DNA of 64,000 bases, taken from NCBI GenBank assembly GCA_018780145.1, contig JADMKA010000103.1, positions 1 through 64,000 on the forward strand. The letters run 5' to 3'. The DNA is from Vitreoscilla sp. GTDB lineage: Bacteria > Pseudomonadota > Gammaproteobacteria > Burkholderiales > Burkholderiaceae_C. The notes under the pieces were generated by a model. That model was not told the DNA's origin. It searched no databases and was given only the letters and a program-made list of their open reading frames with translations. Every line of letters starts with the position of its first letter. Position 1 is the first letter of the stretch. Below, piece after piece: positions 37,522-62,252 of the stretch. Made by a program: the position numbers and the translations under genes.

Positions 37522-37525
37522 CGCA

Positions 37526-38716: not shown

Positions 38717-38778
38717 ATCCAAACGCTCAGGCATTCCCGGGGATGGAAATGGCTGCTGGCGGCCCGATGCGGTCGATC

Positions 38779-39089: not shown

Positions 39090-39170
39090 TATGGGCCGGG
39101 AGCCGGCAACCAGCGCTTTCGCGAGTTTCATGTGTTGCGGGTCACACGACGCACGGTGGAAGCAACTGAC

Positions 39171-40706: not shown

Positions 40707-40709
40707 GCC

Positions 40710-41600: not shown

Positions 41601-41604
41601 GGCG

Positions 41605-47179: not shown

Positions 47180-48634
47180 TTAGCCCACGGAAGCCGCCCG
47201 CAGTGACCAGACAAGCAGGCTGGCGGCTTGCGTGCCCCCGCGCACCGCGACCCGCACGCCGCGGCTGCTGTCCGACGGGAAGACCAATTCCGTCAGGGTG
47301 GCGGCGCCGTCGCCGGTGAAGACCTCCACCGAGCAATGGTCGACCAGCACGCGCAGTTGAAGCGCCCCCATGGCATCGGGCAACGGGGCTTCGCGCCGGC
47401 CACCCCAGTGGCGCGCGTCCACCTCCACACCGGACCGCGAACGATCGATGAAGAGCCTGCCCTGCGCCCGGTCCACGCCGACCACGGTGACCTCGCCCTC
47501 ACCGCAGCGGACCTGCAGCGCCACGTCGGTGGCACCGCCCGCGGCCATGTCGAATTGCAGTTCCAGGCTGCGGCCGTCCAGGCCGGCCAGGTCGAGCGCC
47601 GTCTCGCCCTCGGAGAAGCGGACGTCGCGCCAGGCGCGCTGGGCACCACGCAGGGCGTCCAGGCCTCGCCAGGGCCGCTGGCCGAGGCGGGGGCCCACCG
47701 GGGTGTCGCGCAGGAACAGCTCGCGCGGCACGCTCATGGCACCGCGCCACGGTGCCGTGGGCGTGTGCTTGGCATAGCCGTGGTTGTTCATCCAGGCGAT
47801 CCACACCGGTGCGTCGTGGGTGGCCGGCAACTGGCCCCAGGACAGGGCGGCGTAGAAATCGCTGCCATGGTCGGCCCACATCGCCTCGCGGCCCTGCGGC
47901 ACCTCGGCGACGAAGCGCGTGCCGTCGAAGTGGCCGATGAAGACCTGCGCCCCGGTGCCGCCCGGGTGGCCGGCGAAGGTATCGACCTTCAATAGCCAGC
48001 GGCCGGTGCCGGCCAACTCGATCAGGTCCGGGCACTCCCAGATGCCGCCATCCTCGCCGGCCGGGCCGAAGTCGCTCAGGTGCACCCACTGTGTCAGGTT
48101 GCTCGAGGCGTAGAACGAGACCTGGTGGTCATCAGGCCGCACCACCGCCATCACCCAGCGCGCGGTGGGCACATGCCAGAAGACCTTGGGGTCGCGGAAG
48201 TCCTTCAGGCCGATGTCCAGCACCGGGTTGCCGGCGTACTTCTCCCAGGTGCGGCCGCGGTCCAGGCTGTAGGCCAGTTCCTGCGCCTGCCCGCCTTCGG
48301 GCACCCGCCGGCAACCGGTGTAGATCGCCACCATCGGCACGGCACCGCCACGGCCGAAGCCGCTGGTGTGGTGGGTGTCGACGACGATGCTGCCGGAAAA
48401 GATCGAGACCCGTTCGTCCTCGGGGATGGCCACCGGCAGTTCCTGCCAGTGCACGAGATCCGCGCTGACCGCGTGGCCCCAGCTCATGTGGCCCCACTGC
48501 TCGCCGAACGGGTTGTACTGGTAGAACAGGTGGTACTCGCCGTCGAACCAGACCAGGCCGTTGGGGTCGTTGATCCAGTTTCTCGCGGGCGTGTAGTGGT
48601 AGGCGGGCCGGAAGGCGTCGGTGGCGGCGGTCAT
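47180..48634 (-). CDS. GH32 beta-fructosidase (levanase/invertase type), cytoplasmic
   Basis: The protein has 484 residues with no signal peptide. GH32 motifs are present: W20-INDPNG with nucleophile D23, FRDPK with D148, and the acid/base motif W-E-C-P with E200; a C-terminal beta-sandwich follows. These enzymes release fructose from sucrose, inulin or levan. A cytoplasmic location suits sucrose, sucrose 6-phosphate or imported fructo-oligosaccharides. It ends the second maltodextrin set, starting 2 bases after the amylase stop codon. It is the only non-alpha-glucan hydrolase in the block, hinting that this transporter set may also carry sucrose-like sugars. Confidence 0.88.
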   Translation of the reverse strand: MTAATDAFRPAYHYTPARNWINDPNGLVWFDGEYHLFYQYNPFGEQWGHMSWGHAVSADLVHWQELPVAIPEDERVSIFSGSIVVDTHHTSGFGRGGAVPMVAIYTGCRRVPEGGQAQELAYSLDRGRTWEKYAGNPVLDIGLKDFRDPKVFWHVPTARWVMAVVRPDDHQVSFYASSNLTQWVHLSDFGPAGEDGGIWECPDLIELAGTGRWLLKVDTFAGHPGGTGAQVFIGHFDGTRFVAEVPQGREAMWADHGSDFYAALSWGQLPATHDAPVWIAWMNNHGYAKHTPTAPWRGAMSVPRELFLRDTPVGPRLGQRPWRGLDALRGAQRAWRDVRFSEGETALDLAGLDGRSLELQFDMAAGGATDVALQVRCGEGEVTVVGVDRAQGRLFIDRSRSGVEVDARHWGGRREAPLPDAMGALQLRVLVDHCSVEVFTGDGAATLTELVFPSDSSRGVRVAVRGGTQAASLLVWSLRAASVG

Positions 48635-48636
48635 GG

Positions 48637-50214
48637 TCAGGGCACCCGCTTGTATCGGTTGTAGCCGCCGAGCTCGCGCGGGGTGGGTTTGAGCATCAGC
48701 ACGGTCTCGGGGGGCACGGTCACGGTCATGAGGCCGGCGCCAAAGGTGGCCACCGGCGCCGCGCCCGGGGCGGCCAGCAGGTCGCGCATCGGCGTGTCGT
48801 CCATCAGGTGCGCGTTGGCCACCATCACCCGCTCGGTGACCGCTTGCGGGCCCGGGTTGGCGAACACCAGCACGGTGTCGAGCGCCCGGTCGGTGTGGCG
48901 CTCGAAGGCCAGCAGCCGGTCGGATTCGATCCGGCGGTAGTCCCCCACGCGCAGCGCGCGGTGCTGCTTGCGCAGATCGACCAGCTGGCGCATCCAGGCG
49001 AGCTCGGGGTTGTCGTCGCGCAGCAGATCCCAGCGCATCGGGCTGCGGTTCTCGGGATCGCCCGCACCGGCCATGCCCAGCTCGGCACCGTAGTAGATGT
49101 TGGGAGAGCCGGGCAGGCTGAACTGCAGGGCCTGCACCAGCCGGCGCTGCGAGGTGCGCGGGAACTGGTGGCTGATGCGCGGTATGTCGTGGTTGTCGAT
49201 CACCACCCAGGACTTCAGCATCGGCTCGATGCCGGCGTCGCGCACCAGGCGTTCGGTCATGCGCGCGGCGGTGGCAGGCGCGATCTCGCCGGTGGCCGCC
49301 CCGCGCACGATGTCGCGCAGGCTGAAGTTCATCACCGCATCGAGCGACTGCAGCCAGGCGACCGGGTAGTTGACGATTTCGCCGACCACCAGCGAGCCCG
49401 GCTTCTCGCGGTGGGCCGCATCGGTCAGGTCGCGCAGGTAGCGGTGGCCCAGTTCGTAGGCGGTGTCCAGGCGCCAGCCGTCGGCACCGTCGCGCAGGTA
49501 GCTGCGCAGCACCGAGTCCGGCGCCTCGTAGAGGTAGCGGCGCACCGGCGGGTGCTCCAGGTTCAGCTCGGGCAGGTTCTGGAAGCCGGTCCAGACGCGC
49601 GCGCCGCCGGTGTACTGCGGCCCAATGGCGAACCAGTCGCGCCAGCGGCTGTGCGGGTCGGCCAGGGCCTGCTGGAAGATCGGCGCGTTGCGGCCCATGT
49701 GGTTGAACACGCCGTCCAGCACCAGCTTCATGCCTCTGGCATGCACGTCGGCGGCCAGGCGCTTGAAGTCGGCCCGGTTGCCGTACTCGGGCGAGATCTG
49801 CTGGAAGTCGAGCGCGTCGTACTTGTGGTTGGTGTAGGCCAAGTGGATCGGGTTCAGGTACAGCACGTCGGCGCCCAGGCCCTTCACGTGGTCCAGCCGG
49901 GTGGCCAGGCTGGCCAGGTCACCGCCCCAGAAATCCAGCTCCTGGCTGTTCAGCTTGGCATCGGCCAGGTAGGTGCCGGGCCGGGCCGGCTCGCTCCAGT
50001 CGCGCAGCACCTTGGGTGGCGGGTACAGGCCGCGCTTGGCCGCCAGGTCGGCAGACGGCACGAAGCGGTCGACGATCACCTGGTAGACGATGGCGCCGTT
50101 GCGCCAGTCGCGTTCGCGTTGCTCGTACACGGTCGGCGCTGCGGTGCCGGCGGCCACAAGCACGGGTGCGGCCAGCAGGCCGACCGCGACGATTCGTTGG
50201 AGCGTGTGTGTCAT
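48637..50214 (-). CDS. Secreted GH13 maltodextrin hydrolase (set 2)
   Basis: The protein has 525 residues. A Sec signal peptide covers residues 1-25 (VLVAAGTAA). Catalytic residues are D250 (WRLD), E279 (VGEIVNY) and D343 (DNHD). It is the exported paralogue of the cytoplasmic enzyme at 41605-43143, sharing the framework FWGGDLAS, NHKYDALD, GVFNHMGRNAPIFQ and the C-terminal GGY..YKRV. It likely trims dextrins in the periplasm for MalE2. It lies 57 bases downstream of malG2 on the same strand and 2 bases before the GH32 gene, so it is part of the second transport operon. Confidence 0.88.
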   Translation of the reverse strand: MTHTLQRIVAVGLLAAPVLVAAGTAAPTVYEQRERDWRNGAIVYQVIVDRFVPSADLAAKRGLYPPPKVLRDWSEPARPGTYLADAKLNSQELDFWGGDLASLATRLDHVKGLGADVLYLNPIHLAYTNHKYDALDFQQISPEYGNRADFKRLAADVHARGMKLVLDGVFNHMGRNAPIFQQALADPHSRWRDWFAIGPQYTGGARVWTGFQNLPELNLEHPPVRRYLYEAPDSVLRSYLRDGADGWRLDTAYELGHRYLRDLTDAAHREKPGSLVVGEIVNYPVAWLQSLDAVMNFSLRDIVRGAATGEIAPATAARMTERLVRDAGIEPMLKSWVVIDNHDIPRISHQFPRTSQRRLVQALQFSLPGSPNIYYGAELGMAGAGDPENRSPMRWDLLRDDNPELAWMRQLVDLRKQHRALRVGDYRRIESDRLLAFERHTDRALDTVLVFANPGPQAVTERVMVANAHLMDDTPMRDLLAAPGAAPVATFGAGLMTVTVPPETVLMLKPTPRELGGYNRYKRVP

Positions 50215-50271: not shown

Positions 50272-51162
50272 TCAGCCCTTCACGCCGCCGGCGGCCAGGC
50301 CGGCGATCATCCAGCGCTGGGCGAGCAGGAACACGGTGGTGATGGGCAGGCCCGAAAGCAGCGCCGCGGCGGCGAAGTCGCCCCAGCGGAAGTTGTGCTC
50401 CTGCACGAACAGCTTGCTGCCGACGGCCAGCGTGAGCTGGTCCTGCTGCGACAGCAGCACGCCGGCCACCGGGTACTCGATCACCGCGCCGATGAAGGCC
50501 AGCATGAACACCACCACCAGGATCGGCACCGCCATCGGCAGCAGCACGCGCCAGAAGGCCTGCCAGGGCGTGGCGCCGTCCACCCGGGCGGCCTCCTCGA
50601 TCTCGCCGGGCAGGGTGTCGTAGTAGCCCTTCAAGGTCCACACGTGCATGGCGATGCCGCCCGAGTAGGCCAGCACCAGCGCCCAGTGGGTGTTCAGGCC
50701 GATGGCGGGGAACGCGGTGCCGATGCGGTCGAAGATGGCGTAGATGGCCACCAGGGCCAGGACCGCCGGGAACATCTGCATCAGCATCAGGCCGGTGAGC
50801 AGTTGCTGCCGGCCGCGGAAGCGGATGCGGGCCAGCGCGTACGAGGCGGTGGTGGAGAGCAGCAAGGTGACGGTGGCCGACAGCAGCGCCACCTTGACCG
50901 AGTTCCACAGCCACCGCATCACCGGCAGGTCAGGCAGGATGGGCTGGCCGTCCGGGCCCGGGTAGGGCAGGCCCAGCACGAAGCGCCAATGCTCCAGGCT
51001 GATGGCCGGCGGGATCAGCGAGCCACTGGCGAAGTTGCCAGGCCGCAGCGACACCGAGATGACCACCAGGAAGGGGAACACCACGGCCGCGCAGAGCAGC
51101 AGCAGGAACAGGTGCGCCAGCACCAGGCGCAGGCGCTGCGATTTCGGCTGGACGATGGCCAT
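50272..51162 (-). CDS. malG: Maltodextrin ABC transporter permease (set 2)
   Basis: The protein has 296 residues, a paralogue of the product of 40710-41600 with the same length and the same C-terminal GGVKG. The EAA loop is EAARVDGATPWQAFWRVLLP. It has six membrane segments. It follows malF2 after 12 bases. With MalF2 it should form a second maltodextrin channel; no second ATPase gene accompanies it, so coupling to the MalK encoded at 36406 is inferred. Confidence 0.93.
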   Translation of the reverse strand: MAIVQPKSQRLRLVLAHLFLLLLCAAVVFPFLVVISVSLRPGNFASGSLIPPAISLEHWRFVLGLPYPGPDGQPILPDLPVMRWLWNSVKVALLSATVTLLLSTTASYALARIRFRGRQQLLTGLMLMQMFPAVLALVAIYAIFDRIGTAFPAIGLNTHWALVLAYSGGIAMHVWTLKGYYDTLPGEIEEAARVDGATPWQAFWRVLLPMAVPILVVVFMLAFIGAVIEYPVAGVLLSQQDQLTLAVGSKLFVQEHNFRWGDFAAAALLSGLPITTVFLLAQRWMIAGLAAGGVKG

Positions 51163-51174
51163 GGCGATGCTCCT

Positions 51175-52722
51175 TCAGCGCTTGGCGTCGTCGGCCGACA
51201 GCCGGGTGAAACGCAGCTGCAGCACGGTGACCGCCGCCACGATCAGGAAGATCACGGTGGAGATGGCCGAGGCCAGGCCGAACTGCTGGCCCGCATCCTG
51301 GAAGGCGATGCGCCAGGTGTAGCTGACCAGGATGTCGGTGGTGCCGGCGGGCAGCGCGGTGTCGAGCTGGTCGGGCCGGCCGCCGGTGAGCAGGCTGATC
51401 AGCACGAAGTTGTTGAAGTTGAAGGCGAAGGCCGAGATCAACAGTGGCGTGAGCGGCTTCATGATCAGCGGCAGCGTGATGGCGCGGAAGTTGGTGAGCG
51501 GCCCGGCACCGGCGACGGCCGAGGCCTCGTACAGGTCGGACGGGATCGACTTGATCAGCCCCGAGCACAACACCATCATGTAGGGGAAGCCCAGCCAGAC
51601 GTTGACGATCAGCAGCATCACCTTGGCGAGCAGCGGGTCGCTGAACCAGCCCGGCCGGATGCCGAACAAGCCATCGAGGATGAAGTTGATCTCGCCCAGG
51701 TTCTGGTTGAACAGGCCCTTGAACACCAGGATGGAGATGAAGCCCGGCACCGCGTAGGGCAGGAACAGCACCAACCGGTAGGCGCCCTTGAACTGCAACG
51801 CCTCCCAGTTCAGCAGCACCGACAGCAGCAGGCCCAGGCCGGCGGTGAAGACGACGGTCAGGCCCGAGAACACCACCGTCCAGGCGAACACGCCGAGGAA
51901 GGGCTCGCGGAACTTGCCCTCGCTGAAGATGGTGGCGTAGTGGCGCCAGCCCACGTTCACCCGGTAGCCGGGCAACAAGGTGGTGCCCTCGGCGGAGGTG
52001 TAGAAGCCCGTGTCGTCGTTCGGCCGATAGCGGGTCTTGGTGAGCCGGTCGACCAGAGCGCCGTCGGCTTCGGCCAGGTACAAGGGCAGCATCTGCGCGA
52101 ACTCGCGCAGGCTGATGAGTGTCAGCCGGGCGCCGTCCGGCGTGGTGAGCGCGAGGCCGCGCAACCCTTCGAGCCGCGGCACCACGGCGCGCAGGGGCAA
52201 CGCGGCGCCGAGGGGTGCGCCGTCGGCTGGCTGCAGCGCCACCTCGGTGTGCGTGGCACCCGGTGCGGGGCTGTGCAGCGTCAGCGGCGCGCTCACCCAG
52301 GCGCCGCCGTCCGATTCGAGCCGCAGACGGAAGCGCTCGCCCTCGGCATGCAGCGTGAAGGCCCTGGCGGAGTCGGGCGCCGGCACCGCTTCATCGAGCA
52401 GGTAGGCCCGGGTGGCCTCGAAGTCGAGCAGGTTCTGCGAGCTGTAGTTCGTGAAGCCGATGCCCACGGTGTAGAGCATCGGGAAGATCACGAACAGCGC
52501 CGCCGCAGCCACGCCCGGGAACAGATAGCGCAGGGCGTTGGTGCGGGCCGAGGTGTAGGTCCACAGCGCCAGCGCGGTGATCAGCAGCAGGGTCAGCGCC
52601 AGCAGCGCCTGGCCGGCTGCATGCACCAGGAACACCGCGTAGAGGCAGATGCCGGTGGCCGCGGTGCCGGCCAGCCGGGCCGGCCAGGCGCTCGGGGCGC
52701 GACGGGGGGTTGCCGGGTTCAT
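51175..52722 (-). CDS. malF: Maltodextrin ABC transporter permease (set 2)
   Basis: The protein has 515 residues, a paralogue of the product of 39171-40706. N-terminal membrane helices are followed by a large periplasmic P2-like loop with diverged sequence (about residues 85-265), then the channel helices with EAA loop EASAVAGAGPLTNFRAITLP. The divergence is concentrated in the loop that meets the binding protein, which fits a different partner (MalE2). Its ATG overlaps the malE2 stop codon by 4 bases; unlike set 1, no repeat element separates malE2 from malF2. Confidence 0.93.
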   Translation of the reverse strand: MNPATPRRAPSAWPARLAGTAATGICLYAVFLVHAAGQALLALTLLLITALALWTYTSARTNALRYLFPGVAAAALFVIFPMLYTVGIGFTNYSSQNLLDFEATRAYLLDEAVPAPDSARAFTLHAEGERFRLRLESDGGAWVSAPLTLHSPAPGATHTEVALQPADGAPLGAALPLRAVVPRLEGLRGLALTTPDGARLTLISLREFAQMLPLYLAEADGALVDRLTKTRYRPNDDTGFYTSAEGTTLLPGYRVNVGWRHYATIFSEGKFREPFLGVFAWTVVFSGLTVVFTAGLGLLLSVLLNWEALQFKGAYRLVLFLPYAVPGFISILVFKGLFNQNLGEINFILDGLFGIRPGWFSDPLLAKVMLLIVNVWLGFPYMMVLCSGLIKSIPSDLYEASAVAGAGPLTNFRAITLPLIMKPLTPLLISAFAFNFNNFVLISLLTGGRPDQLDTALPAGTTDILVSYTWRIAFQDAGQQFGLASAISTVIFLIVAAVTVLQLRFTRLSADDAKR

Positions 52723-53939
52723 GCCATGGTGCCCGGCACGATGCGGCGGGCCGCGGACTCGAGGGCCTGCTTCGGTGTCTGCCGCCCTTCGGTGAGGTTG
52801 GTCAGCGAGGACTTCATCGCCCCCCAGAAGCGGCTCATCTCGGGGATGCTCGGGGTGGGCACACCGTCCCGTGCCGAGGCCATGATGCCCGCCACCTTGT
52901 CGCCCACCTGGGCTTGAGCGGCGAGTTCGGCGTAGTAGGCACGGCTGGCCGGCGCGCCGATGGGCTCGGCCTGGTCGATGGCGCGCAGGCCGGGCAGCGA
53001 GAGCAGGTGGTTCTCGATGAACTCGGCCGCGAGTTCGGGCTGCCGGCAGCTGCGGCTGATCATCAGGCCCTTGATGCCAACATAGGGCGCGGCCGGCCGG
53101 CCGGCCACGGCGGGGATCTTGGCGACGCCGAAATCCACCCCAACCCGCTTCAGGTTGACCCAGGCCCAGGGCCCGTTGATCATCATCGCCACCTGGCCGC
53201 TCGCCACCGCAGCCTCCATCTCGGCATAGCCGCTGCCAGCGGGCATCAGGCCCTGGCGGACCAGGCGGTCGAGCAACTCGGCCCCGATCAGCGCGCCGGC
53301 GTTGTGGACGCCGGTGTCGCGCGGGTCGTAGCTGCCATCGCTGCGCTGGCGAAACGCATAGCCGCCGTGGGCGGCCAGCAGTGGCCAGGTGAAGTAGTTG
53401 TTGGTGTAGTCCCAGAGAATGGCGCGCCGGCCCTGCTTGCGCAGCCGGGCGTCGAGCGCGAACACCTCATCGAAGGTCTTCGGCGGGGCGCCGACCAGGG
53501 CCTTGTTGTAGAGCAGCGTCACCGCCTCGATCGCATACGGGTAGCCCCAGAGCCGGCCGCGCACGCCGAAACCCTTCCAGGCCAGCGGGTCGACGTCGTC
53601 CAGCAGGCGCTTGTTCGGGGTCACCGCGCGGATCAGGCCGCTGGCGGCCCACTCGCCGATCCGGTCATGGGCGTAGACGTAGATGTCCGGCCCCTTGCCA
53701 GCGGCCGCGGCCTGCTGGAACTTGGAGGGGCCCTCGATCGGGTCGGGCGTCTCGATCACCACCGGCACGCCGGTCTCGGTGGTGAAGCTCTCGGCCGCGC
53801 GGCGCATGCCCTTGGCGCCCTCGACGGTGAACCAGACCACCAGGGGCTCCGGGCCAGCAGCCGCGAGCCGGCCCGTGGCGGCCAGGGCCGCCGAGAGGCC
53901 GAGCCCTTGCTGGGTGAATCGCCGTCGCGTCAGGGTCAT
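52719..53939 (-). CDS. malE: Maltodextrin-binding protein (set 2), Tat-type signal peptide
   Basis: The protein has 406 residues. The N-terminus reads [20 protein letters not shown], with a twin-arginine motif and a moderately hydrophobic region, so export through Tat is likely, unlike the Sec-type MalE of set 1. The mature part keeps MalE features ([49 protein letters not shown]). The ligand is probably a maltodextrin or related oligosaccharide. The start is 7 bases from operator 53947-53961 and there is no Shine-Dalgarno sequence. It heads malE2-malF2-malG2-amylase-GH32, all on the same strand. Confidence 0.9.
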
Positions 53940-53946
53940 GATGCAA

Positions 53947-53961
53947 TGTAGTTTAAGTACA
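53947..53961. promoter_or_regulatory. Operator O5 (malE2)
   Basis: TGTAGTTTAAGTACA: 13 of 15 positions match the best site. It ends 7 bases upstream of the malE2 ATG and overlaps a -10-like TACATT on the malE2 strand. With O6, 72 bases away, it marks an internal promoter between the peptidase gene and malE2. Confidence 0.7.
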
Positions 53962-54033
53962 CATTGACATCGATTGCAAGAACTTTTTCTAGCCGGGCTG
54001 GTCGCGTGGCCCGGCCATATCATGCCGATGCCG

Positions 54034-54048
54034 AGTAGTTTGACTACT
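54034..54048. promoter_or_regulatory. Operator O6 (inside the peptidase stop codon)
   Basis: AGTAGT-TTG-ACTACT: the inner arms GTAGT/ACTAC are perfect and the palindrome extends to GAGTAGTTTGACTACTC. It overlaps the TAG stop codon (54044-54046) of the S9 peptidase gene and lies 95 bases upstream of the malE2 ATG. It may act as an auxiliary site to O5. Confidence 0.65.
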
Positions 54049-56059
54049 CCGGCAGCGGGTTCAGCGAGAGATGCCGGTCCAGGAAGCGTGCGGTCCGGTT
54101 CCAGAAGTCGTTCAGGTTCTTGGGGTCGCGCCAGCCATGCCCTTCGTCTTCGTAGACCACCCACTCCAGTGCCGTGCTGGCCGGCTGAACGGCCTTGCGA
54201 AAAGTCTCGCCGTGAACCAGCGGCACGCGGCGATCCCGGCCCCCGTACGCCAACAACAGCGGCTGGCGGATCCGTGCGGCATGGGTGATCGGCGATTGCG
54301 CCTTCAGGGTCGCGGCGTCCTCGACGCGGTCACCGAGCAACTGGGGCATTCCGTGCCGCTTGAAACTGGGGGAAATGTCGTCCCAGTCGACGGTGTAGAG
54401 CATGTCGAGGTCGGTCACCCCCACCCAGGCCACGCCGCAGCGGAACAGATCGGCATCACGCGCCAGACCCATCAGCGTGGCATAGCCCCCATAGCTGGCC
54501 CCGGCGAGGGCAATGCGGCGAGCGTCGGCCAGGCCCTGCGCGATGGCCCAGCGGGTCACGTCCACGAGATCGGTCTGCATGGCCTGGCCCCACTGGCGCC
54601 AGCCGGCCTTGAAGTGCTTCAGCCCGTAGCCCAGCGTGCCGCGGAACTGCGGCTGAACGACAGCGAACCCTCGGGCGGCGAGGAACTGAACCGCCTCGTC
54701 CCATTGCCAGCTGGGGCCGGGAGAGAACGGCCCTCCATGCACCAGCACCACGGTCGGCAGGCTCCTGGCTTCGACGCCACGCGGCCGGGTCACCCAGACC
54801 GGTATCTCCAACCCGTCCCGTGCCTTGACACGCACCAGCTCGGAAGCGGCTTGCGTCCTGGCGTCGATGTCCGGGCGCTGTGCGCCCAGCCGCGTGAACT
54901 TGCGCGTTCGCCGGTCGTGCAGGAAGTACAGCGTCGGCTGGATGTCCGCGAAGGCCTCCACCAGCACCCATGGCGAGTCCCCCTGCCAAGGCACCGAAAG
55001 CCGGTTCACGGTGCGCGGCAACACCTTGTCCACCTGCTGTTGAAGGGCGGCCATGTCGGCGTCGACCCACTGCGTCACCTCCGCGTCGATGGTGAACCGG
55101 TAGCCCAGCACCCGATCCTGCCGGTCCACGATCTCGGCGTCGACGTCGAAATCCGGCGACTGCACCAGAGGCTGGCCTGACCAGGCGCCGGTGGCGGGGT
55201 CGAGCAGCCACAGTGCCAGCTTGTCGCTGCCGCGGCGGGCGCTGACATAGAGCCGGCCATCGGCCCCGACCCGGTTGACCTGGAAGTCCCCACCCTCGGT
55301 GTACGCGTTGAACTCGGTCAAGGTTCGCCATTGCCCACTGACCGGGTCGTTCCAGCGCAGGGCGCCCTTCTCGCCGTCACGGGTCTGGGCCACACGCAGC
55401 ACGCCCTTGGCATCCGCCCACCAGCCCACCGAGTGGAGTGGGCCGTCGACTTCCTCGATCCTGCCATTGCGGGTGTTCAGGCGCAGCAGCTTGATGTAGT
55501 CCCAGTCCTTGCTGTCGTAGGCCTCTGGCCGCGCCACGAGCACCTCGTCGCCCTCGCGCTGAGTCGTGCCATTGAGCAGGTAGGTGTTCCAGGGTTCGAG
55601 GCGGCGCGTGTCGTTGCCATTGCGGGCCCACACCGCTTGCCGCTCGACCAGTTGCTTGAAGGCCTTGCCGTCGACATCCACCGCGAACAGGCCGGGCCCG
55701 GCGTCCTGCTGGCCCGCAGGAACGTTGAGGTCGGCCAGCGTGAAGGCCACACGCTGGTTGTTGACCCACACCATGCGGCCCAGGTCGGCAGCGTCCGAGC
55801 TGTAGACCACCGTGGGCACCATCGACTGCAGGTCCAGGACCGACAACAGCACCCGGCCATGCGGGCCGACCGTGCCCATCGCCAGGCGCTGGCCGTCGGG
55901 CGACAGAGCGGCGCTGACCATCTGGGGCGCCTTGAAGTACTGCGCCGCATCCGGCCGCTCGCCTGCAGGCCATCCGATCGCCGGCCAGGCCGCCAGGCCC
56001 GCCGCGGCGAGCAGCGTCCGGCGCCCGATGGGCGGCCCTTTCTGCGCCGACCTGGTCAA
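54044..56059 (-). CDS. S9 family serine peptidase (prolyl oligopeptidase-like), exported
   Basis: The protein has 671 residues from a TTG start inside the TTGA that ends the halogenase gene (translational coupling). The N-terminal GRRTLLAAAGLAAWPAIGWPA looks like a signal peptide, possibly Tat-type. A beta-propeller region (residues about 40-400) precedes the alpha/beta-hydrolase domain with S522 (GASYGGY), D609 (GGRDRR) and H641 (DEGHGW), a complete triad. Such enzymes cleave short peptides in the periplasm. In-frame Met codons further down would lose the signal peptide, and the long open frame upstream belongs to the halogenase region and is not coding in this frame. Its role beside a TonB receptor is unknown. 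Confidence 0.85.
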   Translation of the reverse strand: MTRSAQKGPPIGRRTLLAAAGLAAWPAIGWPAGERPDAAQYFKAPQMVSAALSPDGQRLAMGTVGPHGRVLLSVLDLQSMVPTVVYSSDAADLGRMVWVNNQRVAFTLADLNVPAGQQDAGPGLFAVDVDGKAFKQLVERQAVWARNGNDTRRLEPWNTYLLNGTTQREGDEVLVARPEAYDSKDWDYIKLLRLNTRNGRIEEVDGPLHSVGWWADAKGVLRVAQTRDGEKGALRWNDPVSGQWRTLTEFNAYTEGGDFQVNRVGADGRLYVSARRGSDKLALWLLDPATGAWSGQPLVQSPDFDVDAEIVDRQDRVLGYRFTIDAEVTQWVDADMAALQQQVDKVLPRTVNRLSVPWQGDSPWVLVEAFADIQPTLYFLHDRRTRKFTRLGAQRPDIDARTQAASELVRVKARDGLEIPVWVTRPRGVEARSLPTVVLVHGGPFSPGPSWQWDEAVQFLAARGFAVVQPQFRGTLGYGLKHFKAGWRQWGQAMQTDLVDVTRWAIAQGLADARRIALAGASYGGYATLMGLARDADLFRCGVAWVGVTDLDMLYTVDWDDISPSFKRHGMPQLLGDRVEDAATLKAQSPITHAARIRQPLLLAYGGRDRRVPLVHGETFRKAVQPASTALEWVVYEDEGHGWRDPKNLNDFWNRTARFLDRHLSLNPLPE

Positions 56060-57576
56060 GGCCGGGCAACCGCAGGTGCGGCGCAATGCTGGGCAATGAA
56101 GGCCGCGTGGTCGGGCATCACGTCCACGCACTTGGTGATCACCGCGCGCACGCTCTCCAGGTACTTGACGACCTCGGCCTCGGGCTGCAGATCGACCAGC
56201 GGGTGGTACCGGCGGGGCACCAGGTTCTGCCCCTCGAAGACCTGCAGCCAGCTCTCCTCGGTGAACAGTTCGTTGTCGATGCGCACCATGCGGCCGTGCG
56301 CGGCGAAAAGCTCGATCTTGTGCGCCAGCGAGTCGGGCACCGGCATGTGGGCGCAGGCCTGCCAGAACGCCGAATCGGTTCGCTGGTTGAGCTTGTAGTG
56401 CAGGATCACGAAGTCGCGGATGCGCTCGTACTCGAAGCGCGACTGGCGGTTGTACTCGGCGACGTCGACCGGGTCGAAGGCCTGGTCCGGGAAGTAGTCG
56501 ATCAGCCGCTGCAGCGACGACTGGATCAGGTGGATGCTGGTCGACTCCAGCGGTTCGAGGAAGCCGCTGGCCAGGCCGATCGCCACCACGTTCTTGTTCC
56601 ACGCCTGCTTGCGCATGCCGGTGACAAAGCGGATCTGGCGCGGGTCGGCCTGCGGCTTGCCGTCCAGGTTGGCCAGCAGGGTGCCGGCCGCCTCGTCGTC
56701 GCTGACGAACTGGCTGCAGTAGACATGGCCATTGCCGATGCGGTGTTGCAGCGGGATGCGCCACTGCCAGCCGGCACGGTGGGCGGTGGAGCGGGTGTAG
56801 GGGGTCAGGGCCGGCGCCGAGTCGCAGGGCACGGCCAGTGCGCGGTCGCAGGGCAGCCAGTGCGTCCAGTCCTCGTAGCCGGTCTTCAGCGCCTGCTCGA
56901 TCAGCAGGCCGCGGAAGCCCGAGCAATCGATGAAGAACTCGCCCTCGACGCGCTCGCCGCTCTCCAGCACCACGGCATCGACATGGCCGTCGGGCTCGCG
57001 TTGGCTGACCCGCACGATCTTGCCCTCGGTGCGCTGGACGCCCTTGGCCTCGCAGAACTGGCGCAGGAAGCGCGCGTACAGCGACGCGTCGAAATGGTAG
57101 GCGTAGGCGATGTCGTTCAGCGGCGAGTTCGGGACATCGGTCTGCGGCGGCAGGAACCGGTTGGCCTTGCTGGCCATGCGGGTGATGCAGTAGTTCTCCA
57201 GGCCGGGGGCCTTGCCGAGCGCATGCATCTTCTGCCAGTACTGGTCGAAGCGCACCGTCCACAGATCCTGCCCGATCTTGCCGAAGCCGTGCATGTAGCG
57301 GTCGCCCAGCCGGCCCCAGTTGACGAACTCGATGCCCAGCTTGAAGGTGCCTTGCGTGGCCTTCAGGAACGCCGTCTCGTCCAGCCCGTTCACCTTGTTG
57401 AAGATGCGGATCATCGGGATCGTCGCTTCGCCGACGCCGACGATGCCGATCTCGTCGGATTCGACGAGGCGGATGCGGTAGCGCCCGCGCAGCGCGGTGG
57501 ACAAGGCCGCCGCCGCCATCCAGCCGGAGGTGCCGCCGCCGACGATGACGATGGTCTTCAGAAGCTCGGTGTGCAT
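56056..57576 (-). CDS. Flavin-dependent tryptophan-type halogenase
   Basis: The protein has 506 residues. The FAD loop is GGGTSG (13-18). The halogenase-specific W-x-W-x-I-P motif is at 270-275. Lys79 in TFKL occupies the same number and context as the catalytic Lys79 of PrnA/RebH, and the EPLESTS motif (341-347) carries the second catalytic acid of those enzymes. With reduced flavin from a separate reductase such enzymes chlorinate or brominate indoles or other aromatics. Genes of this family are often next to TonB-dependent receptors in Xanthomonas and Caulobacter, where the natural substrate is unclear. It sits 75 bases after the receptor gene and overlaps the peptidase gene by 4 bases. 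Confidence 0.9.
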   Translation of the reverse strand: MHTELLKTIVIVGGGTSGWMAAAALSTALRGRYRIRLVESDEIGIVGVGEATIPMIRIFNKVNGLDETAFLKATQGTFKLGIEFVNWGRLGDRYMHGFGKIGQDLWTVRFDQYWQKMHALGKAPGLENYCITRMASKANRFLPPQTDVPNSPLNDIAYAYHFDASLYARFLRQFCEAKGVQRTEGKIVRVSQREPDGHVDAVVLESGERVEGEFFIDCSGFRGLLIEQALKTGYEDWTHWLPCDRALAVPCDSAPALTPYTRSTAHRAGWQWRIPLQHRIGNGHVYCSQFVSDDEAAGTLLANLDGKPQADPRQIRFVTGMRKQAWNKNVVAIGLASGFLEPLESTSIHLIQSSLQRLIDYFPDQAFDPVDVAEYNRQSRFEYERIRDFVILHYKLNQRTDSAFWQACAHMPVPDSLAHKIELFAAHGRMVRIDNELFTEESWLQVFEGQNLVPRRYHPLVDLQPEAEVVKYLESVRAVITKCVDVMPDHAAFIAQHCAAPAVARP

Positions 57577-57651
57577 CGCCTGCGCCCTTCTACGATTCGG
57601 AATGGAAAAGGGGAGCCCGAAGGCCCCCCGTGAGCATAGGGCCTGACGCCC

Positions 57652-60477
57652 TCAGAACTTGTAGTTCAGGCCGGCCAGGTAGGACGAGCCGAACTTCTTG
57701 GTCTCTGTCACCGCGCCAGTGGCGGCGTTGTACTTCGTGAACGGCTCGTTGGTCAGGTTGCTGCCCTGGGCCAGCAGCGACAGCCCCTTCAGCCAGCCCG
57801 ACTGGAACTCGTACGAGACCTGCAGGTCCAGCTGCGACTCGGCCTTGATGAAGGCGAGCTGCGTGTTGTCCTGGAAGTCCTGGATCGAGCCCAGGTAGGC
57901 CGAGCGCTGGCGGTGCGCCACGGCGATCTGGAAGCCGTGCTTCTCGTAGTACAGGCGGGCGTTGATGACCTCCTTCGACAGGCCCGGCAACGGGATGTCG
58001 AGGGTGCCGAGGTTCTGGCCACTGACACCCGTGATCGGCAGCTTCACCGAGCTGTTGGTGTTCGAGTAATTCACCATCACGCCGAAGCCGTCCAGCATGT
58101 CGCTGGCCATCGAGAACGGCACGTTGATTGCCAGTTCCACACCGCTGATCGAACCACCCTTGCCGTTGTTGGCCTGGGTGATGGTGTCCAGCGGGCCGAC
58201 TGGCGCAGGCGCGTTCGGCGTCAGGTAATCGGTGTAGTCGAAAGGCCGCTCGACCTTCAGGATGTAGGTGTCCAGGTTCTTGTAGAAGCCAGCGATGCTG
58301 ACGTAGCCCTTCTTGCCGAAGTACTTTTCGTACGACAGGTCGATCACGTCGGCGCGGAAGGGCTCGAGTTCGGGGTTGCCACCCGAGCCGGTGTAGTAGC
58401 CCTTGGTGCTGTCGTAGCTCGGGTCCACCGTGGCCTTCATGTCCTCCATGTTGGGGCGGGCCAGGACGCGGCCGACGCCCAGGCGCAGCAGGTTGTCGCC
58501 ACCGAGATCGGCGGTCAGGTTCAGGCTGGGCAGCACATCGGTGTAGTTGTGGCTCCTGCCGACCGTGTTGTAGTCGCACGAGTGGGCGCCACCATTGCAG
58601 GTGGTGCGGTCGACGACAAAACCAGCGGCCGACTGCTGGGTGCCGATGACCTGCACACCCACGTTGCCGCGCACCGGGAAGCCCGCGATCTCGGTGTCGA
58701 CGTCGCCCTTCAGGTAGCCGGTGGTGACCTTTTCCTTCACACCCCAGGACTTGGCCAAGATGTCGGCATCGGTCCAGGGGTTCAGGTCATAGACCGATCC
58801 CAGTGAACCGGCCGGGTTCCAGTTGAGCGTCGGGATGCCGGTGAGGCCGCCCACGCCGGTGGTCGGGTTCGGCATGTCGGCGAAGACCAGGCGATCGATC
58901 ACGTTGCCGTTCGCATCCAGGGCGCCCGGAATGATCAGCGCACCTTCGCGGGTCACGCGGTCCTTGGTGCGCTCGGTGAAGTTGACGCCAACGTCAACCG
59001 CGGTGATGGGCCCGAAGCTCAGGTCCGTGCGGCCCGACAGCCGCAACGCCGAGATCTTGTCCTTGGTGACCGGATTGGCGTAGTAGCCGTCCTGCACGCC
59101 GTTGGCGCCGGCCCAGCCCTGCACGTCGGTCAGCTTGATCAGGTTCGGGTCGGCGTAGTTCAGGCCGCTGGTGTACTTGACGTCCGCCAGGTTGGACCCA
59201 TTGAAGCCGGTGAACGAGATGGTGTCGTCCAGGCGGGTGGCGTTGCCCGGGATGCCGGCGGTGGTCTCGAAGCGCTCGGAATCCTTCTTCACCTCGGAGT
59301 ACGACAGGTCCGAGCGCAGCGTCCAGCCGCCAGCCAGCAGCTTGGAACCCCAGCCGATGGAGTTCAGCGTGTCGGTGTAATCCTCGTTGTGGTTGCGGAT
59401 CACGCCCTTCCAGTTGGTGAAGGTGCCCGAGGTGGCCACGCCGTCGACGATGGTGGCGTCGATCAGCGTGCCGCCGGTGTCGTTGGCGCCGGCCGACAAG
59501 CCGCCCAGCGGCCCCTCCAGGCCGCGCTTCTTGACCGAGAAATCGCCCTTCGAATAGAACAGGTCGAGGACGGTCTCGAAGTTCTTGTTGGGCTTCCACT
59601 GCAGCACGGCCATTGCGCCGTCGCGGCTCGAGTCGGTGGTTTCGATGTCGGTGGTGAAGCCGCCCGGGGTCTTCACGGTGCCGCCGTTGTAGGGCACATC
59701 GGCGACCCAGCCGCCCCAGGTGTTGAAGTTCGGCCGGCCGCCGCCCTTGGAGTTGGTGTGCGTGAGGCCCAGCGCCACGCCCACGGTACGGTCGGCGAAC
59801 TGGTCGATGTACGACAGCGACGCGCGGTCACCGCTGCCGGTGCTGAAGCCCGGCTTGTTCTCGGCCTTGGAGTTGAACTCCTGGCGGTAGTTGACGACGA
59901 TGTTGCGCTGGCCGAAGTTGAGTGGGCGCACCGACTGCAGATCGGTGGTCGACGACAGGCCCTGGCCGACCAAGCCGGCGTCGGCGGTCTTGTAGACCAG
60001 GATGCTGCCCAGCAATTCGGCCGGGTACTGGTCGAACTCGACGCTGCGGCTGCTGCCGGTGGAGGCCTGCTCACGGCCGTTCAGCAGGCCGCCGTTGAAA
60101 TCGGGCGACATGCCGCGCACGCTGATCTGCTGCGCGCGGCCGGACACCGGGCTGCGCTGCATGGCCACGCCGGGCAGGCGCGAGATCGACTCGGCCACGC
60201 TGGCATCGGGCAGCTTGCCGATGTCTTCCGCCGAAATCGCCTCGACGATCTGGTCGGAGTTCTTCTTGGCGGAAATCGCGTCCTCGATGCCCTTGCGGAT
60301 ACCGGACACCACCACCGTTTGCACCTGCTCGGCCGGCTTGGCCGCTTCCTGCGCGAGGGCCGCGCCGGTCGAGAAGATCAGCGCCGAGCAGGCCGCGGCC
60401 ACCGGGTTGATCGGGAACACCGCGCGCGGCCTGAACCCGTGGGGATTCACACCGTGCCTCTTGTTGGTCATTTTCAT
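57652..60477 (-). CDS. TonB-dependent outer-membrane receptor (Xanthomonas/Caulobacter type)
   Basis: The protein has 941 residues. The signal peptide is long, with cleavage near residue 42 (GAALAQ). A TonB-box-like QTVVVSG follows, then the plug (ISAEDIGKLPDASVAESISRLPGV, RGMSPDFNGG) and a 22-strand-type barrel ending in Phe (GLNYKF), as outer-membrane proteins do. The plug pattern is that of the carbohydrate-linked receptors of Xanthomonas and Caulobacter, including the maltodextrin receptor MalA. It likely imports maltodextrins too large for porins. The start is supported by GAGGAG 7 bases upstream. It heads the receptor-halogenase-peptidase group, and the operator at 60746-60760 is 269 bases upstream. 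Confidence 0.92.
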   Translation of the reverse strand: MKMTNKRHGVNPHGFRPRAVFPINPVAAACSALIFSTGAALAQEAAKPAEQVQTVVVSGIRKGIEDAISAKKNSDQIVEAISAEDIGKLPDASVAESISRLPGVAMQRSPVSGRAQQISVRGMSPDFNGGLLNGREQASTGSSRSVEFDQYPAELLGSILVYKTADAGLVGQGLSSTTDLQSVRPLNFGQRNIVVNYRQEFNSKAENKPGFSTGSGDRASLSYIDQFADRTVGVALGLTHTNSKGGGRPNFNTWGGWVADVPYNGGTVKTPGGFTTDIETTDSSRDGAMAVLQWKPNKNFETVLDLFYSKGDFSVKKRGLEGPLGGLSAGANDTGGTLIDATIVDGVATSGTFTNWKGVIRNHNEDYTDTLNSIGWGSKLLAGGWTLRSDLSYSEVKKDSERFETTAGIPGNATRLDDTISFTGFNGSNLADVKYTSGLNYADPNLIKLTDVQGWAGANGVQDGYYANPVTKDKISALRLSGRTDLSFGPITAVDVGVNFTERTKDRVTREGALIIPGALDANGNVIDRLVFADMPNPTTGVGGLTGIPTLNWNPAGSLGSVYDLNPWTDADILAKSWGVKEKVTTGYLKGDVDTEIAGFPVRGNVGVQVIGTQQSAAGFVVDRTTCNGGAHSCDYNTVGRSHNYTDVLPSLNLTADLGGDNLLRLGVGRVLARPNMEDMKATVDPSYDSTKGYYTGSGGNPELEPFRADVIDLSYEKYFGKKGYVSIAGFYKNLDTYILKVERPFDYTDYLTPNAPAPVGPLDTITQANNGKGGSISGVELAINVPFSMASDMLDGFGVMVNYSNTNSSVKLPITGVSGQNLGTLDIPLPGLSKEVINARLYYEKHGFQIAVAHRQRSAYLGSIQDFQDNTQLAFIKAESQLDLQVSYEFQSGWLKGLSLLAQGSNLTNEPFTKYNAATGAVTETKKFGSSYLAGLNYKF

Positions 60478-60915
60478 GGAGGGACTCCTCAGGCTCTTGG
60501 AACACACATGCACCACAGCCCAACTTGGCGCGCTCTCGCAGAGGGAGGGAGCGAGAGGCCAAGTTTGCAGCTTGTAAAGAATTCTGTACTAAAACTAGAT
60601 TACAAACCACCTCAGGCAATCCCTAAGTGACAGCGCCGGCCGCCCGGCGAGCGGCCAGTCTTACCGATGAAAATGCAGGAAGCACGGAGGTTCCCTGGCG
60701 CGACGATCAAGCTTCGGCGGCGAGGTACATCCCGATTACAAGACATGTAGTGTGACTACATTTCGCGCTTTTCGCCACACCGAAGTCAGTGTTTACCCTG
60801 GCCGCAGCAGCGCCGGCTTGCCAAACCCGGCGTCGGGTGTCTTAGTGCAGGGTTGGGCTGAAAGCAGCCCGGGGTCGGTTGGGCGCGGCCCGTGCGCTGG
60901 GCCCGCAAGGCGGGC
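60478..60915 (-). promoter_or_regulatory. Receptor leader region between glk and the TonB receptor gene
   Basis: These 438 bases lack a gene. They contain operator O7 (60746-60760), an AT-rich stretch at about 60570-60610 that is a likely promoter or leader segment (no convincing -35/-10 pair seen), and the GAGGAG ribosome site just before the receptor ATG. The remainder shows nothing recognisable. Confidence 0.5.
60746..60760. promoter_or_regulatory. Operator O7 (TonB receptor)
   Basis: TGTAGT-GTG-ACTACA: both six-base arms are perfect and 14 of 15 positions match O3. It lies 269 bases before the receptor start codon and 156 bases after the glk stop codon. Confidence 0.75.
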
Positions 60916-61917
60916 TCAGCAGCCGGTGGCTTGCTCGATGGCCGCGGCGGCGCCGGTCAGCGCGGCCAGGGTGTCGGTGATCAGCGCGGTGGGGATCGAC
61001 TCCACATAACCGCGAAAGCGCCCCTTCGCCTCGAAGCGCTCGCGGAACGCCGAGCGGAAGAAGCGCTCCTCCATGCGGGGCACGATGCCGCCACCGATGT
61101 ACACCCCGCCGCGGGCGCCGAGCATTAGGGCCACGTTGCCCGAGAAGCTGCCAAGCAGCGAGCAGAAGGCGTCGAGGCTGCGGCTGCAGTCGGCATCCGC
61201 CCCGGACAGGCCCTGCTCCATGATCTGCTCGGCCGCCAGCGGCTCAGCCACCGGGCGGCCCAGAACTTCGGCCACCGCACGGTGCAGCACCGGCAGGCCG
61301 ATGCCCGACAGCAGCCGCTCGGCCGAGACATGCGGGAACTCGCGCCGCACACAGCGCAGCAACTCCGACTCGAAATCATCGCCCGGCGCCAGGGTGCTGT
61401 GCCCCCCCTCGCCCGGCAGCGCGTGCCAGCCGGAGCGCGTCTGCACCATGCCCGCCACGCCCAGGCCGGTACCCGGGCCGATGACCGCCAGCGCACCTTC
61501 GGCGACCGGCAATGCCCCGTGGGCACGCAACTGGTTGGGCCGCAGGTGCGGCAGCGACAAGGCCAGCGCTTCGAAGTCGTTCAGCACCGACAGCCCATCC
61601 AGGCCCAGATCGGACTGCAGGGCCTGGCGGGAAAAGCTCCAGTGGCTGTTGGTCAGGTCGACCTGGTCGCCAACCACCGCGGTGGCCACGGCGATGGCCG
61701 CATGCCGCGGCGCACGGTAGGCCGGCCCCAGCTGGGTGGCGAGTTGCTCCAGGTAGGTGCGCGCCGCCTGGGCCGGGCCGGCATGGTCGGGCACGGCCAG
61801 CTTGCGCACATGCTCTGCCGCCGTATCCGGCCCGGACAACCAGCCGAAGCGGGCATTGGTGCCGCCGACATCAGCCACCAGGCGCGGATAGGTCGCGGCG
61901 ATCTCGGTGGCCGTCAT
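60916..61917 (-). CDS. glk: Glucokinase (stand-alone)
   Basis: The protein has 333 residues, similar to E. coli Glk (321). It has the ATP/phosphate loop VADVGGTNARFG, LNDFEALA with the catalytic Asp, GPGTGLGVAG and the metal/sugar motif GEGGHSTL. It phosphorylates cytoplasmic glucose freed by MalQ, amylases and GH15. The start MTATEI gives the family N-terminus; the 33 codons open upstream are Pro/Arg-rich and not homologous. It is the second glucokinase of the window, related to but clearly diverged from the kinase half of the HexR fusion. Operator O8 is 156 bases upstream. Confidence 0.93.
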   Translation of the reverse strand: MTATEIAATYPRLVADVGGTNARFGWLSGPDTAAEHVRKLAVPDHAGPAQAARTYLEQLATQLGPAYRAPRHAAIAVATAVVGDQVDLTNSHWSFSRQALQSDLGLDGLSVLNDFEALALSLPHLRPNQLRAHGALPVAEGALAVIGPGTGLGVAGMVQTRSGWHALPGEGGHSTLAPGDDFESELLRCVRREFPHVSAERLLSGIGLPVLHRAVAEVLGRPVAEPLAAEQIMEQGLSGADADCSRSLDAFCSLLGSFSGNVALMLGARGGVYIGGGIVPRMEERFFRSAFRERFEAKGRFRGYVESIPTALITDTLAALTGAAAAIEQATGC

Positions 61918-62252
61918 GCGGGTCGAACCTTGTTCACACGGGCCGGCAAGAGGCCTGATGGGCGGGGGGTCGGGGCGCTCGGGCCTCCGCACGGGCGGTA
62001 TCGCAATTGTTCTCATCCAGCCTGGGTTGGGCAGCTCGCCAACCTGGGCCGAGCGTCGAATCAGAGGCGTAAGGTAGCAAAACTACATTGTCATCGCAAG
62101 AGAGTTCACCCGGAATGCGCCGAGCTTCATACACGATCCCGGTCTCAAGGCGTAATCAAAGTACACGAGTGTATGGCGGCAATCGCCGGGCAGGTGCCAT
62201 GCCCGGCATGCGGCGCGCCGGTCGGCACGCCGGTTGAAGCTACCATGCCAGC
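61918..62252. promoter_or_regulatory. Divergent control region glk / plsC
   Basis: These 335 bases lack a gene. They hold operator O8 (62073-62087), a weak operator-like sequence CGTAATCAAAGTACA (62151-62165, 9 of 15 positions), and a perfect hairpin GCCGGGCA ... TGCCCGGC (62185-62192 / 62200-62207) in the plsC leader. The right boundary of the glucan block probably falls here. Confidence 0.5.
62073..62087. promoter_or_regulatory. Operator O8 (glk)
   Basis: GGTAGCAAAACTACA; on the glk strand TGTAGTTTTGCTACC, which differs from O1 on the pulA strand only in the last base. It lies 156 bases before the glk start codon. Confidence 0.7.

Follow-up and report, generated by a model that had tools for sequence, protein, structure and literature searches.

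What does a flavin-dependent halogenase do among genes for starch uptake, and does it follow the sugar, the receptor beside it or the hydrolase behind it? The question is raised by a gene block in a 64,000-nt stretch of DNA from Vitreoscilla sp. (GCA_018780145.1, contig JADMKA010000103.1, positions 1-64,000), referred to below as the window. On balance we favour the reading that this is an alpha-glucan uptake block whose outer-membrane receptor has its own accessory flavin-dependent halogenase, and we hold it reasonably probable as a whole, including a supply of the enzyme by read-through, a role for the receptor or uptake module and, as substrate, an aromatic moiety carried by some larger partner.

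Layout of the block and its operators

All genes of the block lie on the minus strand. The receptor gene (57652-60477) encodes a TonB-dependent receptor of TIGR01782 (563.9 bits against a cut-off of 310) with a Pfam Plug domain. It is followed after a 75-base gap by the halogenase gene (56056-57576; PF04820, Xcc4156/BrvH group, profile score 672.6 bits), which overlaps by 4 bases the gene of an S9-family serine hydrolase (54044-56059; PF00326, 147 bits), whose TTG start at 56059 is uncertain. This arrangement agrees with the preliminary description of the locus, and profile scores bear out the malE2-malF2-malG2 set that it placed directly after the S9 gene: malE2 (52719-53951, the start being taken as 53951 with an alternative ATG at 53939) encodes a maltose/maltodextrin binding protein (NF007011, 428.9 bits, cut-off 291), and malF2 (51175-52722; NF008232, 626.5 bits, cut-off 392) and malG2 (50272-51162; NF008231, 440.3 bits, cut-off 261) encode permeases. 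Beyond what was described there, the run extends past malG2 with the gene of a GH13 enzyme (48637-50214; PF00128, 172.3 bits), whose nearest model, cyclomaltodextrinase NF041090, is matched at 397.7 bits, below its cut-off of 540, and ends with that of a GH32 enzyme (47180-48634; PF00251, 290 bits). A TonB receptor, sugar enzymes and an inner-membrane transporter thus stand together under shared operators, as is characteristic of a carbohydrate utilisation (CUT) locus; XCC2469 and Caulobacter malA are described in PMC1790865 with the same components and sugar-linked regulation, and the word 'halogenase' is absent from the main text of that paper.

The palindrome previously pointed out upstream of the receptor proved to be an exact TGTAGT-N3-ACTACA (60746-60760) in a pattern search of the window and genome. 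The pattern search also detected a second site ahead of the receptor (60585-60599, two mismatches) and two sites in the S9-malE2 gap that the preliminary description did not mention, one at the malE2 start (53947-53961, one mismatch) and one reaching into the 3' end of the S9 gene (54034-54048, two mismatches). Another exact operator (36152-36166) lies between glgP on the minus strand and malK-malE1-malF1-malG1 on the plus strand, gene names that are our reading of the translations, and an operator-like site with two mismatches (62073-62087) precedes a separate glucokinase gene, as similar sites do at the glucokinase genes of relatives. Allowing up to three mismatches, the window holds 24 matches against 3.4 expected, a number reached by 0 of 100 shuffles. 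Throughout the 5.57-Mb genome, sites with no or one mismatch occur only at 36152, 60746 and 53947, all inside the window, and 71 operator-like sites have two mismatches or fewer.

Conservation among relatives tells the same story. Sites with at most one mismatch number 94 in 161.7 kb outside called genes versus 13 in 1305 kb inside, 50 of the 58 testable receptors have an operator (0.17% in letter shuffles), and many relatives carry a TCTAGTTTTAGTACA-type site in the interval from operator 1 to the receptor. Operators at malE are present in the window and in L084 (of the cultivable relative Paucibacter sp. KBW04, which has the same block), L103/L170, L169 and L174, where L103 and L170 were counted as one case because they appear, by identical order and operators, to be one genome; L100 has no malE operator, and at the other halogenase loci L156, L158 and L160 no site with two mismatches or fewer was found ahead of the receptors. 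Joint regulation with the starch-uptake genes, as had been suggested, is therefore well supported by comparison through the conserved operators ahead of receptor and malE2, and the receptor/halogenase block apparently comes under the same switch as the starch genes.

As for the protein reading these operators, RccR is a member of the RpiR family. The word and spacing found in the window are those of the 15-bp RccR operator of Pseudomonas, and TGTAGT-N3-ACTACA stands before the target genes as it does in an RccR-type regulon. The RccR sites at aceE, 15 bp long and paired, are printed in PMC5489143 as TGTAGTTTTACTACT and TGTAGTAAAACTACA, and the HexR consensus given there is a different word; HexR is listed under the RpiR family in PMC5343134. 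The identity of the operator word with that of RccR points to a glucokinase-RpiR fusion (13223-15163, minus strand; PF02685, HTH_6 and SIS) as the likely regulator; the genome search turned up just one other HTH_6 gene, which is also on this contig. An RccR-type regulon would further have an RpiR protein that binds the sites and lets go of them in response to KDPG. Compared with RccR/HexR regulons, the window is alike in operator word, spacing and pairing, whereas its targets are starch uptake genes and its candidate regulator is fused to a glucokinase. A LacI/MalR-type regulator was rejected in favour of an RpiR-type one because the operator word first guessed had no match and the five LacI genes found are all on other contigs, none on this one. 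A promoter scan of 53700-61000 found no sigma-70-like promoter.

The halogenase and its supply

Comparison supports that the enzyme encoded here has the full set of halogenase motifs and the halogenase fold. Lys79, W270-x-W272-x-I274-P275 and E341-P-L-E344-S345-T346, noted earlier, are all present, and K79, W270, W272, I274, P275, E341, E344 and S345 are invariant across 36 aligned homologues. The features expected of a PF04820 halogenase, namely the FAD motif GxGxxG (GGGTSGW), WQWRIP, K79 and E344-S345, are likewise invariant or nearly so in the 36. The nearest solved structures are 6y1w (Xcc4156 of Xanthomonas campestris, E 7e-166) and 6frl (BrvH of Brevundimonas, E 1.6e-143), and the AF2 model (pLDDT 91.7) has the PrnA/RebH/BrvH fold, with a TM of 0.95 to 6y1w and 0.90 to PrnA 2apg. 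By structural alignment the window enzyme is 51% identical to Xcc4156 and 46% to BrvH, and it shares with both the fold, the catalytic motifs and short substrate-site loops: in the alignment, loop 2 has no extra residues relative to Xcc4156 and loop 1 has about one more than BrvH. The long loop closing over tryptophan, the hallmark of free-tryptophan halogenases, was not found in this alignment (loop ranges from PMC7336383). Where the window differs from these two cases is that its halogenase gene is accompanied by maltodextrin genes, those of an ABC importer among them, and lies behind RccR-type operators. No signal peptide was seen when the sequence was read by eye, and the protein would be a genuine FAD-dependent enzyme, located in the cytoplasm and of the open-site type represented by Xcc4156 and BrvH. 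No PF01613 flavin reductase was found in the block, and the single match in the genome sits on another contig.

The gap between receptor and halogenase contains a terminator-like hairpin on the minus strand (57610-57629; TTCG loop followed by TTTT; -17.7 kcal/mol). Hairpins of this kind occur in 57 of 65 receptor-halogenase gaps of relatives (5.7% in shuffles) when longer stems and one mismatch are allowed, and in 34 of 66 (6.5% in shuffles) in a stricter earlier scan with stems of at most 12 pairs, the counts varying with the hairpin definition. They are not peculiar to this gap, being present in 13 of the 34 gaps that follow the halogenase on the same strand and at 21 of 46 receptors from regions that lack a halogenase, and the window region has 8 terminator-like sites versus 3.5 expected. 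Since such a hairpin parts the two genes, the halogenase is probably produced by read-through: most receptor transcripts would stop behind the receptor, and those that continue would supply the halogenase and the S9 hydrolase at a lower level. In 8 of the 35 TIGR01782 receptors having a halogenase within 7 kb, the nearest one is on the opposite strand, and read-through is thus inapplicable there. The idea of a single simple operon is weakened by this hairpin and by the operators ahead of malE2.

Pairing of receptor and halogenase across genomes

A survey of gene neighbourhoods, proposed beforehand as a check, found the receptor-halogenase pairing repeatedly, in many bacteria and also at loci for other sugars. 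A main-cluster receptor is immediately upstream on the same strand of 66 of 87 halogenase genes; halogenase genes were called in 79 of 80 relative loci (none in L102), among which those of Massilia and Duganella, and some others, are too closely related to count as independent. In a set of 60 genomes, a close receptor and a close halogenase occurred in the same nine, the window's own genome included, and in a phylum sample of 199 genomes TIGR01782 was found in 21 of 23 halogenase genomes versus 10 of 176 others, two scans being treated here as one draw as judged by their shared handles. The pairing is also seen at GH3-, GH30- and sucrose-type loci, which suggests that the task of the halogenase would concern the receptor or uptake module generally and not starch; as judged from gene neighbourhoods, the halogenase tracks the receptor, not the sugar.

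A halogenase lies within 7 kb of 35 of the 83 sampled TIGR01782 receptors, so these receptors can function without one. At the sucrose locus of the same genome the halogenase is only a remnant and the receptor gene is still open, and on the receptor tree linkage changed at least 13 times. Genes for SapC, Cupin_8 and DUF6445 occupy the same place beside these receptors; each was sought with one query and their counts are therefore lower bounds. Several genomes have receptor-SapC-Cupin_8-halogenase clusters, in which a TIGR01782 receptor is followed by a halogenase as in the window, whereas the window has the S9 gene after the halogenase and no SapC or Cupin_8 between receptor and malE2. Receptor-halogenase pairing as such is already known; among the titles and abstract beginnings found in the open-access literature, none described a receptor-halogenase-carbohydrate operon. 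In all 72 loci with both genes the halogenase was closer than the receptor to the window copy (medians 72% vs 49%). Distances of the two proteins were correlated (r 0.83, 65 pairs, 0 of 2000 permutations), as is expected for any co-inherited neighbours.

The S9 hydrolase has a Ser-Asp-His triad (S520, D606, H638), which is intact in 10 of 13 relatives; the nucleophile motif is degenerate in L057, L058 and L077, with Asp changed in two of these and His in one. Its cluster is present at 13 of 80 relative loci (tblastn matches S9 at 15 of 80), in each of the 13 directly behind a halogenase, and of the 34 halogenase regions sampled across the phylum one contains S9; by these counts it is an optional member of the pairing. 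By this analysis the halogenase goes with the receptor, and neither with a given sugar nor with the S9 enzyme. One halogenase of this group now has its place in a sugar regulon for which operators, a candidate regulator, a terminator within the unit and a convenient inducer can be named, and given the recurrent pairing and the apparent starch switch, its job can be sought under defined growth conditions.

Candidate tasks of the halogenase

In our preferred reading, the likeliest class of substrate would be aromatic groups that belong to something larger, such as a peptide or one of the proteins that make up the uptake machinery. Possible, with a clearly lower probability, is that a small aromatic (indole, phenol or a plant aromatic), imported by the receptor or made by the cell, is halogenated, giving a product that works outside the cell or is rendered harmless. 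BrvH does brominate free indole at C3 (PMC5945002) and Xcc4156 brominates model substrates (PMC7336383), and the window enzyme is close to both. However, the activity of BrvH on indole is described as low, tryptophan was left unhalogenated and the authors doubted indole as the natural substrate (PMC5945002), the natural substrates of BrvH and the Xanthomonas enzymes being stated as unknown in PMC7336383; moreover, the pairing involves receptors of several sugar loci, and no aromatic catabolism family was found among the nine block proteins scanned.

We consider unlikely the wider proposal that TIGR01782 sugar receptors throughout Pseudomonadota are accompanied by one or another of a small range of modifying enzymes (flavin halogenase, Cupin_8, SapC, DUF6445), the halogenase being a dedicated modifier of aromatic residues, either in the receptor itself or in a partner within the uptake complex, that would act in the cytoplasm before export, in substoichiometric amounts owing to the terminator behind the receptor gene. 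Tyr725, the best aromatic candidate in the receptor, is present in 82 of 86 halogenase-linked versus 1 of 20 unlinked receptors among 106, and in 38 of 56 versus 8 of 68 in a wider set of 124, which left out L198 and L199 (linkage unclear), receptors cut by the region start and matches below 380 bits. On a FastTree tree, 12 independent pairs differed on average in the same way in 2.0 cases and the opposite way in 0.9 and were equal in 9.1 (median p 1). With shared ancestry taken into account, Tyr725 thus does not follow the halogenase; it was rejected as evidence for a receptor target and lends the protein-target step of our preferred reading no residue-level support. The pair test covered the 25 residue states of largest raw difference rather than all aromatics. 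Among the residue states listed, Glu878 went in the same direction in 1-7 of 12 pairs and never in the opposite one, and Asp481 was lost together with linkage in 2-3 pairs, both being non-aromatic picks from many columns.

It is fairly improbable that the halogenase has no role in uptake and stays beside the receptor as a passenger, through co-inheritance or because regulation there is handy. The remnant in the sucrose locus, the many TIGR01782 receptors without a halogenase and the repeated changes of linkage are consistent with a passenger, but the halogenase is strongly conserved, more so than the receptor, and the pairing is repeated across the phylum and at loci of different sugars. More doubtful again is that the reaction of this PF04820 flavoenzyme is hydroxylation or oxidation, not halogenation, of an aromatic residue in a protein destined for export, as is the case for QhpG acting on tryptophan. 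A weak similarity to the QhpG model (26.3 bits against a cut-off of 240) and the Cupin_8, SapC and DUF6445 genes in the same spot beside receptors would fit such a role; against it, Lys79 and the Glu-Ser pair on which halogenases rely are invariant in the 36 homologues, and the closest solved relatives are reported to brominate in vitro. Finally, the pathway suggested in the preliminary description, in which a periplasmic peptide is trimmed by the S9 peptidase and modified by the halogenase, is very improbable despite the constant position of the S9 cluster behind the halogenase, since the S9 gene is optional and its active site is degenerate in three relatives. The start of the S9 hydrolase is Tat-like when read by eye, and the two enzymes would occupy different compartments.

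Gene run and operators

The TonB-dependent receptor of TIGR01782 (60477-57652), the PF04820 halogenase P0001 (57576-56056) and the S9-family serine hydrolase (56059-54044) open a run on the minus strand that continues with malE2, malF2 and malG2 and closes, at 47180, with genes for GH13 and GH32 enzymes. Taking the malE2 start at 53951, receptor and halogenase are 75 bases apart, halogenase and S9 gene overlap by 4, and 92 bases lead on to malE2, which overlaps malF2 by 4; the remaining gaps are 12, 57 and 2 bases. Coordinates and family searches agree with the preliminary description of the first three genes, as does the sequence with the halogenase motifs claimed there, and the gene arrangement is real, beyond chance. 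The GH32 gene (47180-48634) ends the maltodextrin run, as in L084 and L103 of relatives, hinting that the second MalEFG importer could also carry sucrose-like sugars. Two MalEFG sets, at 36391-43143 and 50272-53951, are about 9 kb apart and face opposite ways, both preceded by a shared type of operator, and the former has malK (names read off the translations). The window also carries a dispersed repeat, some 300 bases long, at 19680-19979 and 38750-39049 (92% alike), with a related 84-base stretch at 30977-31060.

It had also been proposed that the halogenase block is regulated together with starch uptake, and the comparison of operators supports and could sharpen this. A search for the word TGTAGT-N3-ACTACA with up to 3 mismatches found 24 sites in the window, compared to 3.4 by chance, and the three best sites of the genome (36152, 60746 and 53947) all lie within it. 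In the 80 relatives' loci, sites with 0 or 1 mismatch numbered 94 in 161.7 kb outside called genes against 13 in 1305 kb inside. Among the 58 receptors that are followed directly by a halogenase and have >300 bases of sequence ahead of them, 50 carried such a site no more than 700 bases away (0.17% in letter shuffles); in the other eight the best site had 2 or 3 mismatches (L054, L059, L076, L096, and L098) or 4 or 5 (L123, L124, and L127). In many loci a further site with the pattern TCTAGTTTTAGTACA stands downstream of the first and ahead of the receptor (window copy at 60585). Window malE2 has operators of its own and sites also precede malE in L084, L103/L170, L169, and L174, with none before malE in L100; elsewhere in the 80 loci they precede malK, glucokinase, MFS, GH13, and GH31 genes. 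No sites with up to 2 mismatches were found before the receptors of L156 and L158, the GH3 and ABC-importer locus and the sucrose-type locus of the window's genome, or of L160, a halogenase locus of genome G022. Comparison among relatives thus gives good support to joint regulation with alpha-glucan genes.

Candidate regulator and hairpin

RccR, an RpiR-family protein, offers a comparison for these operators. In PMC5489143 the RccR sites at aceE are given as a pair of 15-bp words, TGTAGTTTTACTACT and TGTAGTAAAACTACA, which lie 68 bp from each other and are released by KDPG; their halves and spacing equal those of the window sites. HexR is listed as RpiR family in PMC5343134. A genome search found two HTH_6 genes, both on the window's contig: a glucokinase-RpiR fusion (13223-15163) and, beyond the window, an RpiR gene at G000:C157:89842-90057 (L179). 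No LacI gene was found on this contig. A match to the fusion lies divergently one gene from the receptor in nine loci (L060, L064, L065, L070, L082, L084, L091, L107, and L115), and in 9/9 of these the matching glucokinase genes adjoin sites resembling the operator (1 or 2 mismatches). We infer that the fusion reads the operator sites, with KDPG as its ligand.

The 75-base gap between receptor and halogenase contains a terminator-like hairpin, GGGGGGCC-TTCG-GGCTCCCC-TTTT (-17.7 kcal/mol). The scan that found it gave 8 terminator-like sites in 7.3 kb compared to 3.5 expected; the window alone therefore proves little, and the comparison of relatives carries the point. Their receptor-halogenase gaps showed a hairpin with a T run in 57/65 cases (5.7% of shuffles), or in 34/66 by a narrower scan (6.5% of shuffles), and a control of same-strand gaps behind the halogenase in 13/34. 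In a phylum sample, a hairpin followed 16 of 26 receptors with a halogenase, SapC or Cupin_8 next and also 21 of 46 in halogenase-free regions, indicating that it is a feature of the receptor gene generally. The halogenase, lying downstream, would probably be made by read-through.

The halogenase and its receptor

P0001 matched PF04820 with 672.6 bits, and Lys79, Trp270, Trp272, Glu341, Glu344, and Ser345 were invariant in 36 homologues. The closest solved structures are Xcc4156 (6y1w), a Pseudoalteromonas enzyme (9luq) and BrvH (6frl); the AlphaFold2 model (pLDDT 91.7) gave TM 0.95 against 6y1w and about 0.9 against tryptophan halogenases. In the alignment the two substrate loops are short, like those of Xcc4156 and BrvH, and the abstract on Xcc4156 (PMC7336383) suggests that the open site might admit larger substrates, possibly even peptides. 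Because the chain reaches the FAD-binding strand almost immediately (residues 8-12) and inspection of its start revealed no signal peptide, the halogenase is presumably cytoplasmic.

In 72/72 loci where both proteins match over most of their length, the halogenase was closer to the window copy than the receptor (medians 72% vs 49%), and the distances of the two correlated (r 0.83, 65 pairs). Whatever the enzyme recognises would seem to vary less than the variable regions of the receptor do. In L158 (G000:C162:1-10894), the receptor gene is open, but the halogenase directly after it is reduced to pieces at 4874-5229 that match residues 386-505 and lie in two frames; L166 and L173 have an open halogenase frame at this place. 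As only a remnant stays while the receptor gene is open, the halogenase was dispensable in this sucrose-type locus.

A single fixed aromatic target in the receptor would be expected to appear and vanish together with the halogenase. Receptor Tyr725 was considered as such a target and at first seemed striking, being present in 82/86 halogenase-linked compared to 1/20 unlinked receptors. When 12 independent pairs were compared on the tree there was mostly no difference; the association is mainly ancestry and was rejected as evidence. The pair test covered the 25 residue states with the largest raw difference, and thus some of the receptor's aromatics, and halogenase targets may vary between receptors. 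Among the results listed, Glu878 was linked with the halogenase in 1 to 7 of the 12 pairs and never the opposite, a residue chosen from many columns and possibly by chance.

The S9 hydrolase and the setting in other genomes

The preliminary description considered a peptide substrate trimmed by the S9 peptidase. The triad S520, D606, and H638 is present in the window protein. Its cluster was found in 13/80 loci (15/80 by tblastn), in 13/13 directly behind a halogenase, and in the phylum sample it lay in 1/34 halogenase regions and 1/45 others. L057, L058, and L077 (genes at about 11446-13548) have a degenerate nucleophile motif, and two of them also differ at the Asp and one at the His, as if these genes were retained for a non-catalytic role. 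Being rare in relatives and phylum sample and degenerate in three, the S9 hydrolase is an optional, lineage-bound member, which makes the trimmed-peptide proposal weak.

Halogenases next to TonB receptors are a known kind, of which the arrangement here, in a maltodextrin block with the hairpin and RccR-type operators, is a variant; no description of this setting was found in the open-access literature searched. Among 87 halogenase genes called in 79/80 relatives' loci, 66 immediately followed a main-cluster receptor on their own strand, one lay at a contig edge and 20 had another upstream neighbour, including GH3 or GH13 genes, halogenases in tandem, other receptors and a receptor fragment where a contig begins. 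Elsewhere the pair accompanies GH30 genes, GH3 genes and genes resembling sucrose phosphorylase, the last being a reading of a GH13 protein. A close receptor was present in 9/60 genomes, the window's own included, and these nine were also the ones with halogenases of >45% identity along their length; three more had only distant or fragment matches.

Across 199 genomes of the phylum, TIGR01782 was found in 31, PF04820 (E up to 1e-60) in 23 and both in 21 (Fisher 8e-19, kinship ignored). A halogenase lay within 7 kb of 35/83 sampled receptors, on the same strand in 27/35, and of the 83 receptors at least 16 had a Cupin_8, 15 a SapC, and 7 a DUF6445 gene nearby. The order receptor - (halogenase) - SapC - Cupin_8 - halogenase - (DUF6445) recurred within the phylum sample, in L220, L222, L232, L236, L262, L268, L274, L275, L277, L291, and L294. 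In L126 (3940-11497), from a gammaproteobacterial MAG, a long open frame is followed by five consecutive genes of the halogenase cluster.
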